The notes under the pieces are model-generated. The model worked only from the letters and a program-made list of their open reading frames with translations, had not been told where the DNA came from and made no database searches. A stretch of 64,000 nucleotides of DNA from Agrobacterium vitis (GTDB lineage: Bacteria; Pseudomonadota; Alphaproteobacteria; Rhizobiales; Rhizobiaceae), in NCBI RefSeq assembly GCF_013337045.2, contig NZ_CP118259.1, positions 1,178,001 to 1,242,000 on the forward strand, given 5' to 3'. Shown here one piece after another: positions 16,598 through 56,233 of this stretch. Positions within the stretch are counted from its first letter, which is position 1. Each line of letters starts with the position of its first letter. A program made the position numbers and the translations under genes.

Positions 16598-17839
16598 TTG
16601 GTTTTACTCTTCAACATTCCAACGCTGATGATCTGCCTGCTGGTCGGATGGACCTTGAATTCTGTCCTGATGAGCATCAGCTGGTTTTTCGACCGCAAAT
16701 CCAACCATTTGGGTCTTTGGAGTATCGGTTTTTGGTGTGTTTCAATCGGTACATGCTTGCAGGCTTTGCGCGGTATCGTTCCTGAATCTCTCGGTATCGG
16801 CGTTGGTGGAGCACTGGTGCTTCTGGGCTCCGGACTGGTGTGGGTTGGGTTTCGGATCTTCGATGGATTTTCCCGTTCCCATTGGTTTGTGGTCGCAATA
16901 ACTGCGATTTGGCTCCTCTGCTATTTTGGAGTGAATGTTTTTTCCGCCAATCCGGACTACAGAATTGTCCTCTACACGATTTTGACCGTTATGCAGATCG
17001 GCGCTTTGGTCGCCTCGATTGGGTCCGGCTGGAAGAGCGACCGTTTTCCAGTCCGCCTCGTCATTATCTTCATGCTGCTGTCCTATGGCTTTGTCATGTT
17101 GCTACGCATTCCTCTGGTGATGATTTGGCCGGTCACCGAGGTTGGTGGCGTAGCCCAAACAGCATGGGTGTCGGTCGTTACCTTTATTTTATACGTCAAT
17201 AGCCTTGGGCTGGGGATCGGCATTTTTGCGCTCAGCAGCCATCGAAGCCTCATGCAGTATAAGCATGCCTCCGAGATCGACATGCTGACCGGCGTTCTCA
17301 ATCGCCGCGCTTTCTATGAGCGCGCCCAGTCACAAATGCTCAAGAGCGCTGGTGTGCTGGCGCTGATCGATCTTGATCATTTCAAGTATATCAATGATGC
17401 GCATGGACATGCAGGAGGGGATGCAGCCTTGTGTGCCTTCGGGAAAACGATGATCGAGCAACTTGATGCGAACATGGTGTTTGGCCGGCTCGGTGGGGAA
17501 GAATTCGCTTTGTTCATGCCGCAAATGACAGGTGATGAAGCGCTGGCCTTTTGCGATGGGCTGCGGCAATCCGTTGCCCGGCTCACCACACCCTGGCGTG
17601 ATGCGATGATCACCATGACCATCAGTATCGGCATGCATGAGGTGGCCAAAGCCGGGGCGGATCTTGACGCGGTGTCTCTTCGGGCGGATGCAGCACTTTA
17701 CCGGGCTAAGGACCAGGGACGGGATCGTTGTATTTTGAGCGCTGCGGAGGACGTCGTGGCGCAGAAACCGGAGGAGGGGATGGCGGCCGTCATCGCGCTT
17801 ATCGGTGCTAAACCAGCGGCGGTACCTGAACTATCGTGA
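16598..17839 (+). CDS. membrane-anchored GGDEF diguanylate cyclase
   Basis: The 413-aa protein has six to seven hydrophobic segments in residues 1-215, forming an integral membrane sensor. A GGDEF domain follows from DMLTGVLNRRAF (about 228) with the active motif GGEEF at 299-303. No RxxD inhibition site is present before GGEEF. It would make cyclic di-GMP from GTP at the inner membrane. There is no EAL domain. The start is uncertain: TTG at 16598 and ATG at 16628 are both in frame and neither has a strong ribosome binding site. Confidence 0.85.
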   Translation: MVLLFNIPTLMICLLVGWTLNSVLMSISWFFDRKSNHLGLWSIGFWCVSIGTCLQALRGIVPESLGIGVGGALVLLGSGLVWVGFRIFDGFSRSHWFVVAITAIWLLCYFGVNVFSANPDYRIVLYTILTVMQIGALVASIGSGWKSDRFPVRLVIIFMLLSYGFVMLLRIPLVMIWPVTEVGGVAQTAWVSVVTFILYVNSLGLGIGIFALSSHRSLMQYKHASEIDMLTGVLNRRAFYERAQSQMLKSAGVLALIDLDHFKYINDAHGHAGGDAALCAFGKTMIEQLDANMVFGRLGGEEFALFMPQMTGDEALAFCDGLRQSVARLTTPWRDAMITMTISIGMHEVAKAGADLDAVSLRADAALYRAKDQGRDRCILSAAEDVVAQKPEEGMAAVIALIGAKPAAVPELS

Positions 17840-17866
17840 TGCGTCGAAAAGTGCTGGTAAGGGGAA

Positions 17867-17897
17867 TGCCAAGCGCCATCTTTGAGGGCGCTTGGCA
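17867..17897 (+). terminator. hairpin between the GGDEF and GST genes
   Basis: TGCCAAGCGCC pairs with GGCGCTTGGCA over 11 bp with a 9-nt loop, followed by AATTCTTGTT. It lies between convergent genes and may serve both. Confidence 0.65.
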
Positions 17898-18600: not shown

Positions 18601-18724
18601 ATACGAAGGCGCAAAGATGCTCACGCATCTTCGCCTGACAAGAATTTCGAATATCTCAAATCTGTGAAGGTTTGAGATATTCGACAATAAAATACGGAAA
18701 ATCATTCTCTATGGCTCTCCGTAT
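18601..18724. repeat. three-hairpin mobile repeat, copy A
   Basis: This 124-bp unit begins ATACGAAGG and ends CTCCGTAT, so its ends are inverted. It folds as three stems: AAGATGC/GCATCTT with a TCAC loop, GAATATCTCAAA/TTTGAGATATTC, and ATACGGA/TCCGTAT. A second copy with the same order and orientation lies at 48653-48777. Differences between copies fall on both sides of the second and third stems, keeping the pairing. It resembles in layout the intergenic mosaic (RIME-like) or MITE elements of rhizobia. Confidence 0.8.
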
Positions 18725-18774: not shown

Positions 18775-19989
18775 TCAGGCAGCCATTGCAGCCCGAAGGT
18801 TTTCATCCACCTTGTCGAGGAAGGCGGTGGTCGACAGCCACGGCTGGTCGGGACCGATCAGCAGCGCCAGATCCTTGGTCATGTAGCCAGCTTCGACCGT
18901 GTCGACGCAAACCTTTTCAAGGGTGAGGGCGAACTTGGCCAGTTCGGCATTGTCATCCAGCTTGGCGCGGTGCGCGAGGCCACGGGTCCAGGCAAAGATC
19001 GACGCGATAGAATTGGTCGAGGTTTCCTGGCCCTTCTGGTGCTGGCGATAGTGACGGGTCACGGTGCCGTGGGCGGCTTCGGCTTCCACCGTGCGGCCAT
19101 CTGGCGACAGCAGAACCGAGGTCATCAGGCCGAGCGAGCCGAAGCCCTGGGCAACCGTGTCAGACTGCACGTCGCCGTCATAGTTCTTGCAGGCCCAGAT
19201 ATAGCCGCCGGACCATTTCAGCGCAGAGGCAACCATGTCGTCGATCAGGCGATGCTCGTAGGTAATGCCGGCGGCGTCGAACTGGGCCTTGAATTCGGCC
19301 TGGTAGACTTCCTCGAAAATATCCTTGAAGCGGCCGTCATAGGCCTTCAAAATGGTGTTCTTGGTGGACAGGTAGACTGGCCATTTGCGCATCAGGCCGT
19401 AGTTCATCGAAGCGCGGGCGAAATCGCGGATCGAATCATCCAGGTTGTACATGGCCATGGCTACACCGGCGGACGGTGCATCGAACACGTCCTTCTCGAT
19501 GACCTGGCCGTCTTCGCCAACGAACTTGATGGTCAGCTTGCCCTTGCCGGGGAATTTGAAATCGGTTGCCTTATACTGGTCGCCGAAGGCATGACGGCCA
19601 ACAACGATCGGCTGGGTCCAGCCGGGGACGAGACGGGGTACGTTCTTGCAGATGATTGGCTCGCGGAAAATAACGCCGCCGAGGATGTTGCGGATCGTGC
19701 CGTTCGGGCTTTTCCACATTTCCTTCAGGTTGAATTCCTTCACGCGGGCTTCGTCTGGCGTGATGGTGGCGCATTTGATGCCGACGCCGTGCTTTTTGAT
19801 CGCGTGGGCGGAATCGATCGTCACCTGGTCATTGGTTGCATCGCGGTTTTCTACCGAGAGGTCGTAGTATTCAATCTCGAGATCGAGATAGGGAAGGATC
19901 AGCTTTTCCTTGATGAACTGCCAGATGATACGGGTCATTTCATCGCCGTCGAGATCGACGACCGGGTTGGCAACCTTGATCTTTTGCAT
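18775..19989 (-). CDS. icd: NADP-dependent isocitrate dehydrogenase
   Basis: The 404-aa enzyme oxidises isocitrate to 2-oxoglutarate in the TCA cycle. It begins [23 protein letters not shown], the mark of the homodimeric, eukaryote-like IDH class found in alphaproteobacteria rather than the E. coli class. [32 protein letters not shown] and the NADP-binding [16 protein letters not shown] are present. Length is normal. It is transcribed alone, divergent from trmJ, and has its own terminator. Confidence 0.96.
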
Positions 19990-32613: not shown

Positions 32614-32644
32614 CGAGGGTTTCCTTTGCCGGAGGGTTTTTGTT

Positions 32645-32698
32645 GCAGTTCCGACATCACGGGTATCCGGCACTCGCGTCAGAGGGGCCCGGAACTGC
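32645..32698. promoter_or_regulatory. hairpin in the terC leader
   Basis: GCAGTTCCG (32645-32653) pairs with CGGAACTGC (32690-32698) around a 36-nt structured-looking loop, ending about 30 bases upstream of the terC start. It could be a leader RNA element or an operator. No known riboswitch was recognised. Confidence 0.45.
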
Positions 32699-32747
32699 TG
32701 ATACAACGGTAAATGAGGCGGGCCTGCCACGAGTTCAAGGCCGGTGC

Positions 32748-47061: not shown

Positions 47062-48138
47062 TCAAGCCGCAATTTGGCTTTGGTTGATTTCCCTGTGCCG
47101 CCGCATGATGATGGCGAAGACTTCGCGGGCAATGTAGCGTTTGAGGCAACGAATAGCCTCGAGCTTCGAATTTCCGGCTGCGATCCGTCGGGCGACGTAG
47201 TCCTGCGTGCGTGCCTCCAATCGAAGCCTCCCGATGGCGATGATGTGGATGGCGCTGTTTGCTGCGCGATCCCCACCCCTGTTCAACCTGTGCCGGACCG
47301 TTTTCCCGGAAGAAGCGGGGACTGGGCTAACGCCGCACAATGCGGCGAAGCTCGCCTCGGACTTCAACCGGTCAGAGTTATCGCCCGCCGTGAGCAGCAA
47401 CTGCGCCGCACTGTTCACGCCGATTGCGGTTTGAGCAAGGAGTTCAGGAGCGAGATCCTTGACGATAGCCTCAATCATGTCGTCGAGGTCGGCGATCTCG
47501 TCATGGAGTTCGAGATAACGCCGCGCCAGAGACTTGAGAGAGATGCGGTAGGCTTCCTCGACCTGGCGATACGCAGTGAGGTCAGGTCTACCGGCTGCGA
47601 GCGTACGGATCAATTGCATCCGCGTCATGCTGCGTAGCGGATCGCGGATTTTGTCCGGTGCGCAGACGATGGTCATCTGGATCATCTGCAGGGCAATGCG
47701 GCGCGCCTGAATAGCGGTTTTGCGGCAAACCCTTAGGACGCGTAAACTTTCTACCATGCCGTCCCTGCTGCGTGGCGTTACGGTGTGCCGTCTCGCAAAG
47801 GCTGCGTGGGCCGCACTTTCTGCGTCGAAGTCGTCATTCTTGCCGCGCCGGCGGCGGTCGAGTTTGTCAGGTGCGGTGACCTCCAGAATCTCGACACCTG
47901 CGGTTTGCATGTAGCGCAGCAACCCCGCGCCGTAGCTGCCAGAGCATTCGATCCCGACCCGCTGGAGTTCCCCGAATGATCGCATCCAAGCCAGCATCAA
48001 GCGATAGCCGTGTCGGGTTGTCGGGAAGCTCTCGGTACCGAGAACGCGGTCGCGATGATCAACGACTGCCGCGACATGCAAGTCCTTGTGTGTATCGACG
48101 CCACCAATGACGTGAGTTTCTGCTCGGTGTTCAGCCAT
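47062..48138 (-). CDS. IS110-family DEDD transposase
   Basis: The 358-aa protein has an N-terminal RuvC-like DEDD domain: GGVDTHKDLHVAAV (first Asp), ECSGSYGAGL (Glu) and KNDDFDAE (last acids). The C-terminal Tnp domain has LCGVSPVPASSGKTVRHRLNRGG with the serine used in catalysis and NSAIHIIAIGRL. It appears full length and intact. It recombines DNA without free ends, guided in characterised members by a bridge RNA from the element's non-coding end. Confidence 0.92.
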   Translation of the reverse strand: MAEHRAETHVIGGVDTHKDLHVAAVVDHRDRVLGTESFPTTRHGYRLMLAWMRSFGELQRVGIECSGSYGAGLLRYMQTAGVEILEVTAPDKLDRRRRGKNDDFDAESAAHAAFARRHTVTPRSRDGMVESLRVLRVCRKTAIQARRIALQMIQMTIVCAPDKIRDPLRSMTRMQLIRTLAAGRPDLTAYRQVEEAYRISLKSLARRYLELHDEIADLDDMIEAIVKDLAPELLAQTAIGVNSAAQLLLTAGDNSDRLKSEASFAALCGVSPVPASSGKTVRHRLNRGGDRAANSAIHIIAIGRLRLEARTQDYVARRIAAGNSKLEAIRCLKRYIAREVFAIIMRRHREINQSQIAA

Positions 48139-48424
48139 CTAATTGTCCTCTCCTGCGGCATGAGAATTATTTGCCTGAAGGATGCGGGGACAGGACAGTC
48201 ATGGGACCTGAGGGTCATGCCCTTCTTGGGTCACCGTAGCACCTTCGAGGCAAGACCTCACCGCAGGGCGTTCCCGGATGATCGACAGGTCCGCGGAAAG
48301 ACACATATTGGGTCGATCGGAATGAGGGTCAGATCATACCGGGAAGCCATGCGGCACCAGCCCAGAGGATGGTCAAACGGTGTTTGAGTCAAACCACCTG
48401 AAAACTGGTATCAATCATATGACT
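48139..48424 (-). ncRNA. candidate guide (bridge/seek) RNA region of the IS110 element
   Basis: The ~286-bp non-coding end upstream of the transposase is where IS110-group elements encode their bridge RNA. At 48264-48271 it contains CAGGGCGT, the exact complement of ACGCCCTG that spans the insertion junction in the target. At 48317-48325 GATCGGAAT differs by one base from the other half (GATCCGAAT). No secondary structure was computed; the assignment is by position and these short matches. Confidence 0.45.
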
Positions 48425-49035
48425 ATCCGAATGGACCACAACCTGACCCTTTGGCTTGCGTCGCCAAACCGCCATGAGCAAGGCCTGCAGCACGACATCA
48501 GTGGTTTGCCGGCTCTGCATTGACGAGCCAATCACCCGGCGGAAATAGAGATCGATGACGACAGCAAGGTAGGCGAAGCCCTCGCAGGTCCGGATATATT
48601 GCCGGGACGACGCTTGTAACCGATTTCAGCCTTGATCCCAGCAAGCCGTGTCATACCAAGTCTCGAAGATGCTCACGCATCCTCGACTTGAACAAATTGA
48701 AAATATCTCAAATCCGTCAGAGGCTTGAGATATTTTCAAAAGGAATACGAAGAGCCATTTTCGATGACTCCTCGTATCAGACGCGCGACGCGGTTCGGGC
48801 AGCACATCTCGCCTTGGTCGAGAAGGTCGTCATGGAGCTTGCGATAGCCATAGACCTTGCCGCTCTCTTCCCAAGCCTGAAACAGGAGATCGGTCTGTCG
48901 TTTGTCCTCGCTGGCCCGTTTGCTCAACGGGCCCTTCAGCCAGGCGTAGAACCCGCTCGGGCGCACATGGAGAAGCCGACAGATCGTCCGGACCGAAAAT
49001 CGCAGGCGATGCAGGGCTATGAACGCGTACTTCAC
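48425..49035 (-). pseudogene. IS3 orfB, 5' fragment interrupted by a repeat and a deletion
   Basis: From 49035 the minus strand reads MKYAFIALHRLRFSVRTICR, an OrfB N-terminal HTH, with GKVYGYRKLHDDLLDQGE. It runs to RVARL, where the repeat at 48653-48777 enters. Beyond it TRLAGIKAEIGYKRRPG resumes. A deletion and frame change then lead to YIRTCEGFAYLAVVIDLYFR and WRRKPKGQVVVHSD at the IS110 junction. Confidence 0.85.
48653..48777. repeat. three-hairpin mobile repeat, copy B, inserted in IS3 orfB
   Basis: The 125-bp unit begins ATACCAAGTC and ends CTCCTCGTAT and has the same order of stems as copy A at 18601-18724: CGAAGATGC/GCATCCTCG, GAAAATATCTCAA/TTGAGATATTTTC and ATACGA/TCGTAT. It splits orfB codons for RVARL and TRLAG; on the minus strand TGA is present on both sides of a core TACG...GGTA, which suggests a 3-bp target duplication. 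This shows that the repeat can move. Confidence 0.85.
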
Positions 49036-49050
49036 TTTGCATCGCTGGAA

Positions 49051-49299
49051 TTATGCGGCCGCTTTTTTAAGAATGTCGCGCTCCTCGGTGACGCGAGCCA
49101 GTTCCTTCTTCAGCCGCCTGATCTCGTCGGCCTCGTCGCTGGTCTTGCCGTTCGATGTGCCGAACTTCTTCTTCCACTCGTATAGCGAATGCTGGCTGAC
49201 CCCGAGCCGTTGCGAAACCTCCGTCACCGGGTAGCCACGCTCGGTGATCTGACGCACCGCGTCGCGCTTGAACTCTTCCGTGAAATTGCCTTTGCCCAT
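49051..49299 (-). CDS. IS3-family transposase OrfA
   Basis: The 82-aa protein (GKGNFTEEFKRDAVRQITER...) has an HTH_Tnp_1 domain (VTEVSQRLGVSQHSLYEWKKKF) and a leucine-zipper tail (IRRLKKELARVTEERDILKKA) that joins OrfB. It looks complete, but its partner OrfB is broken, so the element cannot move on its own. Confidence 0.88.
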   Translation of the reverse strand: MGKGNFTEEFKRDAVRQITERGYPVTEVSQRLGVSQHSLYEWKKKFGTSNGKTSDEADEIRRLKKELARVTEERDILKKAAA

Positions 49300-49442
49300 G
49301 TAGGCATCATGCCTCATGATTTAGGAGAGAAGGCCTCTACAAATCTAGGGGCTATTCAGTCGCCATTCCGCCGTAAGTTCGCAACAGCCGTCAAACCCGG
49401 TATTCCAATGCTTCTGAATTATGTCGAGCGTTCATTATTGAA

Positions 49443-55384: not shown

Positions 55385-56233
55385 GGCCGTAGACTCATAA
55401 CGATCTGATCCAAATTCTTGCTGCTGCCAATTTGACAGCGGCGAGAAAGTTCAATGGGTCTTTGTCGTAACGGGTTGCGATGCCTCTGAACTGTTTGAGT
55501 TTGCTGAAGAAACGCTCAACGAGATTGCGCTGTCGGTAAACCCATTGGCTGAAAGGGAAGCTTCCCTTCCGATTGCTCTTGGCAGGAATATTGGCCCATG
55601 CCTGCCTTTGCTTTGCAAATGCTCTGATCGCGTTGGTATCGTAGGCCTTGTCCGCCAGCAGGATCGCACCCTTGGAGATTGTCTGTAACAATGGTTCTGC
55701 CATGCGACCATCATGGGTTTGACCGGCTGTGAGTGCGAGACGGATCGGTCGGCCATCGGCATCGACAACGGCGTGGATTTTGGTGGTCAAGCCGCCACGG
55801 GAACGTCCCATGCAGCCATCGTGTTGATCCCCCTTTTTCCCGTGGCCGCATGTTGATGAACACGGACACAGGAGCTGTCGATCATAACGATATCGCCGTC
55901 GAAAGCCTTGGAAATCTCGCCCAGAACATGATCCCAGACACCCGCCTTTCGCCATCGCACGAACCGGTTGTAGCAGGTTGTATATGGACCATATCGATCA
56001 GGAACGTCTGCCCAGGGTGAACCTGTCCGAAACCGCCACAAGATGCCGTTGATCACCCGCCGGTCGTCAACCCGTGGCACCCCACGCGGCTTGTTGGGCA
56101 ACAAGGGCTGGATGACAGTCCATTCGAAATCGGTGAGATCAAACCGGCGACGGGTCATGAGAGGCCTCCAAATCAAGGCCTCAGTGAATCAAAATCAGGC
56201 CGATTTGCAAACCCGGTTTATGAGTGTGCGGCC
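55385..56233 (-). mobile_element. IS5-family (IS427-like) insertion sequence
   Basis: An 849-bp element with imperfect inverted ends (GGCCGTAGACTCATAA and, inversely at the other end, GGCCGCACACTCATAA). TA is present at both flanks as the target duplication. It encodes a two-frame transposase. It is inserted at the stop codon of the aspartic protease gene. Confidence 0.88.
55395..56158 (-). CDS. IS5-family transposase in two frames, joined by -1 frameshift
   Basis: The first frame (from 56158) gives MTRRRFDLTDFEWTVIQPLL, RTGSPWADVPDRYGPY and IVMIDSSCVRVHQHAATGK (first catalytic Asp). The second ends at 55395 and gives GCMGRSRGGLTTKIHAVVDA, LLADKAYDTNAIR (second Asp) and RNLVERFFSKLKQFRGIATR (Glu), completing the DDE triad. 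On the minus strand five A and five G (55829-55838) form the slippery site A-AAA-AAG, as known for the IS427 group. Both halves seem intact, so the element may be active. Confidence 0.88.

Follow-up and report, generated by a model that had tools for sequence, protein, structure and literature searches.

A probably transposable three-hairpin element of about 123 bp in Agrobacterium vitis and related Rhizobiales

The 64,000-nucleotide stretch of Agrobacterium vitis DNA analysed here (the window; contig NZ_CP118259.1 of assembly GCF_013337045.2, positions 1,178,001 to 1,242,000) holds two similar non-coding segments, A and B, each predicted to form three consecutive hairpins, and B lies within an IS3-type element. 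This raises the question of whether A and B belong to a mobile family and, if so, of what kind. An earlier note, made from the letters alone, regarded them as a non-autonomous mobile unit (MITE/RIME-like) or as a mobile structured RNA. We are largely confident that both belong to a repeated non-coding element of ~123 bp with TAC...GTA ends and a T-N-A target; it is likely transposable, a DDE-type transposase probably moving it in trans. Directly observed are the number of copies, their limits, the duplicated target, sites that are empty in related strains, and covarying bases in all three palindromes.

Copies A and B (Table 1) are alignable over their full length. Their limits are set by R1, a covariance model built from 23 copies of the own genome, A and B included; both segments previously reported are present, with the ends given then (48653-48777 and 18601-18724) each one base too wide. 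Three hairpins in the same order are predicted in both, with DNA minimum free energies of -26.6 (B) and -29.6 kcal/mol (A), equivalent to z -7.1 and -7.7 against shuffled sequences, and 0 of 200 shuffles of either copy folds as well. The shared hairpin order proposed before is thereby borne out, and the inverted ends are confirmed as TAC...GTA.

Table 1. Features of copies A and B and their surroundings (positions in the window).
Feature	Position	Strand	Basis and remarks
Copy B, three-hairpin element	48654..48776	+	123 bp, TACCAAG...CTCGTA; model R1 134.9 bits (B among the 23 model sequences); empty-site comparison
Left 3-bp target-site duplication of B, TCA (TGA on -)	48651..48653	.	sequence; single in empty site L048
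Right 3-bp target-site duplication of B, TCA	48777..48779	.	sequence; empty-site comparison
B hairpin 1, apex GATGC-TCAC-GCATC	48657..48690	+	predicted fold; family covariation
B hairpin 2, long AT-rich stem	48697..48739	+	predicted fold; family covariation
B hairpin 3, right end of element; one GANTC site (GACTC)	48746..48776	+	predicted fold; family covariation; sequence
Copy A, more diverged	18602..18723	+	122 bp; model R1 102.8 bits (A among the 23 model sequences); same place in relatives G308, G352
A hairpin 1	18607..18636	+	predicted fold
A hairpin 2	18644..18688	+	predicted fold; other palindromic repeat there in G305, G334, G346
A hairpin 3	18693..18723	+	predicted fold
IS3-type element fragment, host of copy B, split by it	48400..49340	-	matches annotated IS3 family transposase genes; LR723676
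GST gene; copy A lies 29 bases upstream of its start codon	17949..18572	-	Pfam GST_N families
Isocitrate/isopropylmalate dehydrogenase-family gene, other flank of copy A	18775..19989	-	Pfam Iso_dh

Copy A is flanked by GAA and TCA, i.e. by no intact duplication; the corresponding site of two relatives has GAA/TAA, which makes a decayed TAA duplication likely. As the earlier note proposed, copy A may influence expression of the GST gene. The IS3 piece together with the same insert is found again at 142.7 kb of contig C1 (L020), 98% identical over 373 bases and followed by IS110-family sequence, and hairpin 3 of that copy is broken off at the start of another sequence, transposase-like by eye; the B locus was thus copied once more after the insertion. 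An IS110-family transposase gene (window 47062-48138) adjoins the same IS3 fragment, which may therefore carry two later insertions. Elsewhere in the window, a weak model match near the 3' end of the GST gene (17800-17897, 24.3 bits, E 0.003) is possibly a decayed copy, an IS5-family transposase in two overlapping pieces (55407-56146), with six genome copies of identical scores, belongs to a probably recently active element, and a terC RNA element (Rfam RF03067) scores above gathering at 32642-32700 (-).

The family extends far beyond these two copies in the own genome and its relatives, as the covariance-model search proposed earlier reveals. The own genome contains at least 82 matches at E<=1e-3 (best 150 of 1454 candidates scored), opposite-strand overlaps excluded; the model gives 93 rows at E<=0.01, five of them overlapping an opposite-strand match, and 83 at E<=1e-3, one of which overlaps in this way. 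BLAST with copy A yields at least 47 matches (40 of 73 candidates scored), some being the opposite-strand palindrome of the same copy. The 5' end pattern matches the genome 65 times, compared with 5 for the reversed control, and the 3' pattern 51 times, some of them both strands of one hairpin, compared with 0. The family is far from chance. At E<=1e-4, five close genomes of the same genus have 59, 72, 73, 74 and 69 matches and further congeners 53, 16, 8, 8 and 2; G237 has none among 12 scored candidates. Rhizobium paknamense DSM 100301 (G342) has at least 149 matches at E<=1e-4 (150 candidates scored) with the highest scores, an apparent recent burst. Two of its copies (G342:C1:628233-628355 and 628359-628481) stand head to tail, separated by 3 bp, as if one had inserted at the other's target duplication.

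The first model has matches in 10 of 297 genomes of the family, counting the own genome, with 12 candidates scored in each. Across the order, a second model, built from 16 diverse copies, detects the element in 31 of 397 genomes, again including the own one, and in 14 of 142 genera; for 15 of the 31 genomes the match number is a minimum (best 8 candidates scored). The order-level loci (n=24) measure 122-125 bp in 23 cases and 113 bp in one. Their stems vary in sequence; the TAC-like ends recur, as do the apices of hairpin 1 (GATGCTGACGCATC) and hairpin 3 (TCATTTTCAATG). A short form of ~100 bp without the stem of hairpin 2 is present in G016, G230, G284 and Pannonibacter plasmids. Among 84,980 species genomes, an exact hairpin-2 pattern is confined to 37 stretches, in R. 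paknamense and three genomes of A. vitis (own genome possibly left out), and it has 0 matches in viral contigs. Annotated plasmids matching copy B comprise 13 records: 11 of A. vitis, one of Allorhizobium ampelinum S4 and a partial one of A. salinitolerans. A plasmid search with a copy from another family returned no match. Methylobacterium nodulans has one diverged plasmid copy, and two Asticcacaulis plasmids (Caulobacterales) possess one matching place each, in one case with a TAA duplication (by eye).

Insertion is documented by empty sites. The IS3 of a Rhizobium sp. TCK plasmid (LR723676), 90% identical to that of the window over 567 aligned columns before the insert, reads uninterrupted GCGTCTGACAAGG, whereas the window reads GCGTC-TGA-[123 bp]-TGA-CACGG. 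Copy B, which splits the IS3 orfB, therefore inserted into an IS that was already present, presumably with an effect on that IS. The TGA noted earlier on both sides of copy B is a true 3-bp target duplication, present once in the empty site. Six more plasmid records (H2-H7) have IS3 matches that stop exactly at the insertion point (query position 564), which would fit absence of the insert. Two LysR loci of the A. vitis complex give filled and empty pairs, each differing by exactly 126 bp (123 + 3): pAtS4e is filled at the S4 locus (CAGC-TTA-[123]-TTA-CTGC) and the CG78 and VAT03-9 plasmids are empty (CAGCTTACTG); pRvVAR0630a is filled at the VAR06-30 locus (CGC-TTA-[123]-TTA-GCC) and S4 is empty (CGCTTAGCC), as are CG78 and VAR03-1 with a few bases different at the junction. 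A filled/empty comparison of a 6-kb region with three elements was uninformative, gene content differing among the relatives there. At L123 (514-2434), synteny with most compared relatives resumes exactly at the element end (2434/2435), which suggests a rearrangement with one end at the element.

Exact 3-bp duplications flank 36 of the 52 best-scoring loci (two further ones, with a cut flank or an interrupting IS, were dropped before the count), and all are TNA: TTA 18, TAA 14, TCA 2 and TGA 2. They occur at 15/28 loci of the own genome and 21/24 of relatives, leaving 16/52 without an exact one; counting the same insertion once (five of the 52 are repeats across genomes, in four groups), 32/47 sites are exact. 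Of 24 loci with full flanks from other families of the order, 17 have exact duplications, all TNA, and 7 do not. Second-model cousins and short forms have them in 6/16 cases, one being TGC and not TNA; the other ten include three short-form loci whose right end was cut wrongly. Empty sites, 3-bp duplications, polymorphism between strains and a count of at least 82 copies thus all support the non-autonomous mobile unit of the earlier note. That note had staked the proposal on copies beyond the two, on duplications and on IS3 relatives lacking the segment: copies are many, duplications are present, and one IS3 relative is without the insert.

Most copies are intergenic. According to a simple ORF heuristic, the 50 best copies of the own genome are distributed as 24 between tandem genes, 15 between convergent and 5 between divergent genes, 5 overlapping an ORF and one at an edge, i.e. 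44 of the 49 classifiable copies are intergenic. Several copies abut a stop codon, since TAA and TGA fit TNA, and in annotated plasmids a CDS ends at the element in 4/9 regions, two of which are the same locus. Targeting of stop codons was considered and dismissed, 6 cases being observed and 5.8 expected in 30 loci. Several copies in G342 and G107 (L220:2345, L223:4879, L235:318, L227:310, L258:320) contain another rhizobial repeat placed precisely within the hairpin-1 apical loop and flanked, as judged by eye, by TA duplications. This loop therefore looks like an insertion hot spot, at which elements become mosaics. At the copy-A site of G305, G334 and G346 (L183, L184, L185), a two-palindrome module, which we take to resemble RIME1, replaces hairpin 2; two other relatives keep hairpin 2.

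The three palindromes covary. Two-sided changes affect 28 of 44 pairs (14.6 +/- 2.0 in shuffles) and 243 cells (81 +/- 11), figures that lean upward, as the alignment is fitted to the model and the rows are related. The pairing-preserving changes reported earlier for stems 2 and 3 are real and prove to be family-wide in all three hairpins, hairpin 1 included. Such stems could also belong to an RNA regulatory unit (3' end stabiliser, attenuator, sRNA) or a mobile structured RNA, its mobility being incidental. Stable predicted folds (z about -7), covarying stems, apical loops that recur across families and the intergenic position of most copies all speak for an RNA, and transcribed repeats are known in Sinorhizobium meliloti, as the accessible part of the source states (PMC2873474). 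However, mispairs on the modelled strand amount to 109 G-U and 145 A-C in 94 distinct rows, although alignment with an RNA model favours G-U (binomial p 0.03, on non-independent cells). Per hairpin the numbers are 36 v 41, 34 v 33 and 39 v 71, and hairpins 1 and 3 of 47 superfamily rows have 18 G-U and 24 A-C; hairpin 2 of these rows (58 G-U, 25 A-C) was left out by choice, its stem being misregistered between subfamilies. Since selection on an RNA of the modelled strand should raise G-U over A-C, pairing looks to be preserved at the DNA level rather than in such an RNA; the A-C surplus of hairpin 3 would still be compatible with an RNA transcribed from the opposite strand. At gathering score, the element has no Rfam match in the window, and two weak hits in L090 are far below that score. 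We consider an RNA improbable, and the mobile structured RNA of the earlier note is not supported. Three adjacent pairs of hairpin 2 change together in blocks, which would fit template-switch correction of quasipalindromes.

GANTC sites invite another reading, one voiced as speculation for CIR repeats: a maintained CcrM methylation platform that has spread because of the methylation sites it carries. In the Allorhizobium group, 63 of 94 rows have the site in hairpin 3 (200 shuffles: mean 11.5, maximum 19), 36 rows have GANTC in both arms, 20 of these with the central N unpaired, and 7/12 cousins carry it, but at order level it is limited to 6/26 (shuffle mean 3.3, maximum 8). GANTC is consequently not a core feature and may come from one ancestral copy; this reading we rate as slightly less probable still than an RNA. 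A REP/REPIN-type element mobilised by a RAYT/HUH single-strand transposase would share short palindromes at both ends, a mostly intergenic position and the lack of coding capacity. HUH insertion makes no target duplication, though, whereas the empty sites reveal one of 3 bp, and the unit here is 123 bp with three hairpins, so that we give this origin hardly any credence.

For the transposable element that we prefer, a DDE-type transposase would act in trans on a non-autonomous, MITE-like unit, an enzyme type suggested by the short target duplication, as from a staggered cut. It would recognise the TAC ends along with hairpins 1 and 3 next to them; the palindromes would be kept as DNA, either as dyads or as extruded hairpins, and not as RNA. 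IS1031-type elements make TNA duplications. A transposase with matching ends, for which the earlier note had advised to look, was not found in the regions searched. In the own genome, the lists of 5' and 3' end patterns contain no IS-length pair, and 13 regions mainly around orphan ends comprise fragments or ordinary copies only. No IS-length element bounded by both ends is present in 40 regions of G342, G107 and G322, mostly at 5' ends outside listed model hits (100 of 144 end matches listed for G342); these regions hold standard copies, degraded copies and copies with nested repeats. The copy in L221 has hairpin 3 split by an IS-sized insert with an IS5-family match. IS5-family elements (NF033580) were rejected as partner: at 7 of their loci, from three genomes, that were examined for inverted repeats, the one convincing pair starts with CTAGGCC, not TAC. 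A scan for TNA-TAC...GTA-TNA in 340 sequences (1.29 Mb, some overlapping) gives 77 pairs of 120-129 bp, 2 shorter and 11 longer ones. Among the longer, pairs of 2756 bp (L226, L304) enclose a GGDEF-EAL gene and one of 1726 bp (L236) an SRP54-type GTPase gene; they hold no transposase, so in each case two separate copies have been paired by chance. Nested repeats account for L223/L315 and L228, L338 holds an insert, and further longer pairs lie in L150/L169, L252 and L253.

More tentatively, and with the balance somewhat against it, the element may represent a pan-alphaproteobacterial transposable superfamily of ~123 bp with TAC ends and a TNA target, in which the architecture is read as DNA by a hairpin-reading transposase, stems are rewritten in matched pairs and apical loops are kept. 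If so, the same route would explain the movement of CIR-type repeats. For a similar class of repeat, clean filled and empty sites, a defined 3-bp target and an apparent recent-burst strain are now available, so that one can search for the transposase and test what the hairpins do. Within the A. vitis complex, the element would serve as a strain marker.

As in MITEs, the element is multicopy, short and non-coding (a transposase would not fit into 123 bp, and the listed matches are of model length), and it possesses the target-site duplication and empty sites described above. Its terminal inverted repeats (TACSAAG...CTTSGTA) are imperfect and, unlike those of classical MITEs, short (~7 bp). Classical bacterial MITEs are thought to use a transposase in trans and duplicate TA, whereas the three-hairpin element duplicates 3-bp TNA. 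RIME1 is 108 bp long with two large palindromes, in contrast to 123 bp and three palindromes here, and the nesting suggests that the three-hairpin element and the RIME1-like module are separate units. ERIC, Correia/NEMIS and RUP are, in the accessible part of a review (PMC2229807), likewise small and accompanied by a target duplication, but form one end-to-end fold and not three independent palindromes.

No description of the three-hairpin element was recognised in the accessible portions of the open-access literature searched. By description, the closest repeats are the alphaproteobacterial CIR/RIME/Bru-RS class. RIME1, RIME2 and the A, B and C mosaic elements of Rhizobium and Sinorhizobium are likewise rhizobial intergenic palindromic mosaics, according to the parts of the sources available (PMC2573895, PMC2245857). 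Bru-RS of Brucella, likened by its description in the available part of the source (PMC2267715), is also alphaproteobacterial, palindromic and intergenic, but differs in length (103-105 bp). CIR (CcrM-associated intergenic repeats, Chen and Shapiro 2003), known here by description only from the accessible part of a review (PMC2229807), share the alphaproteobacterial occurrence, a length of ~100-125 bp, the intergenic position, independent long inverted repeats instead of one end-to-end hairpin, 5'TA3' termini and GANTC near the apex in part of the copies. They have two arms and a linker (~110 bp), whereas the element described here has three arms and mostly 122-123 bp, with the short form elsewhere, and its GANTC is not universal. 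For CIR the same review lists the target duplication as '?'; for the three-hairpin element, duplication and empty sites are both at hand.
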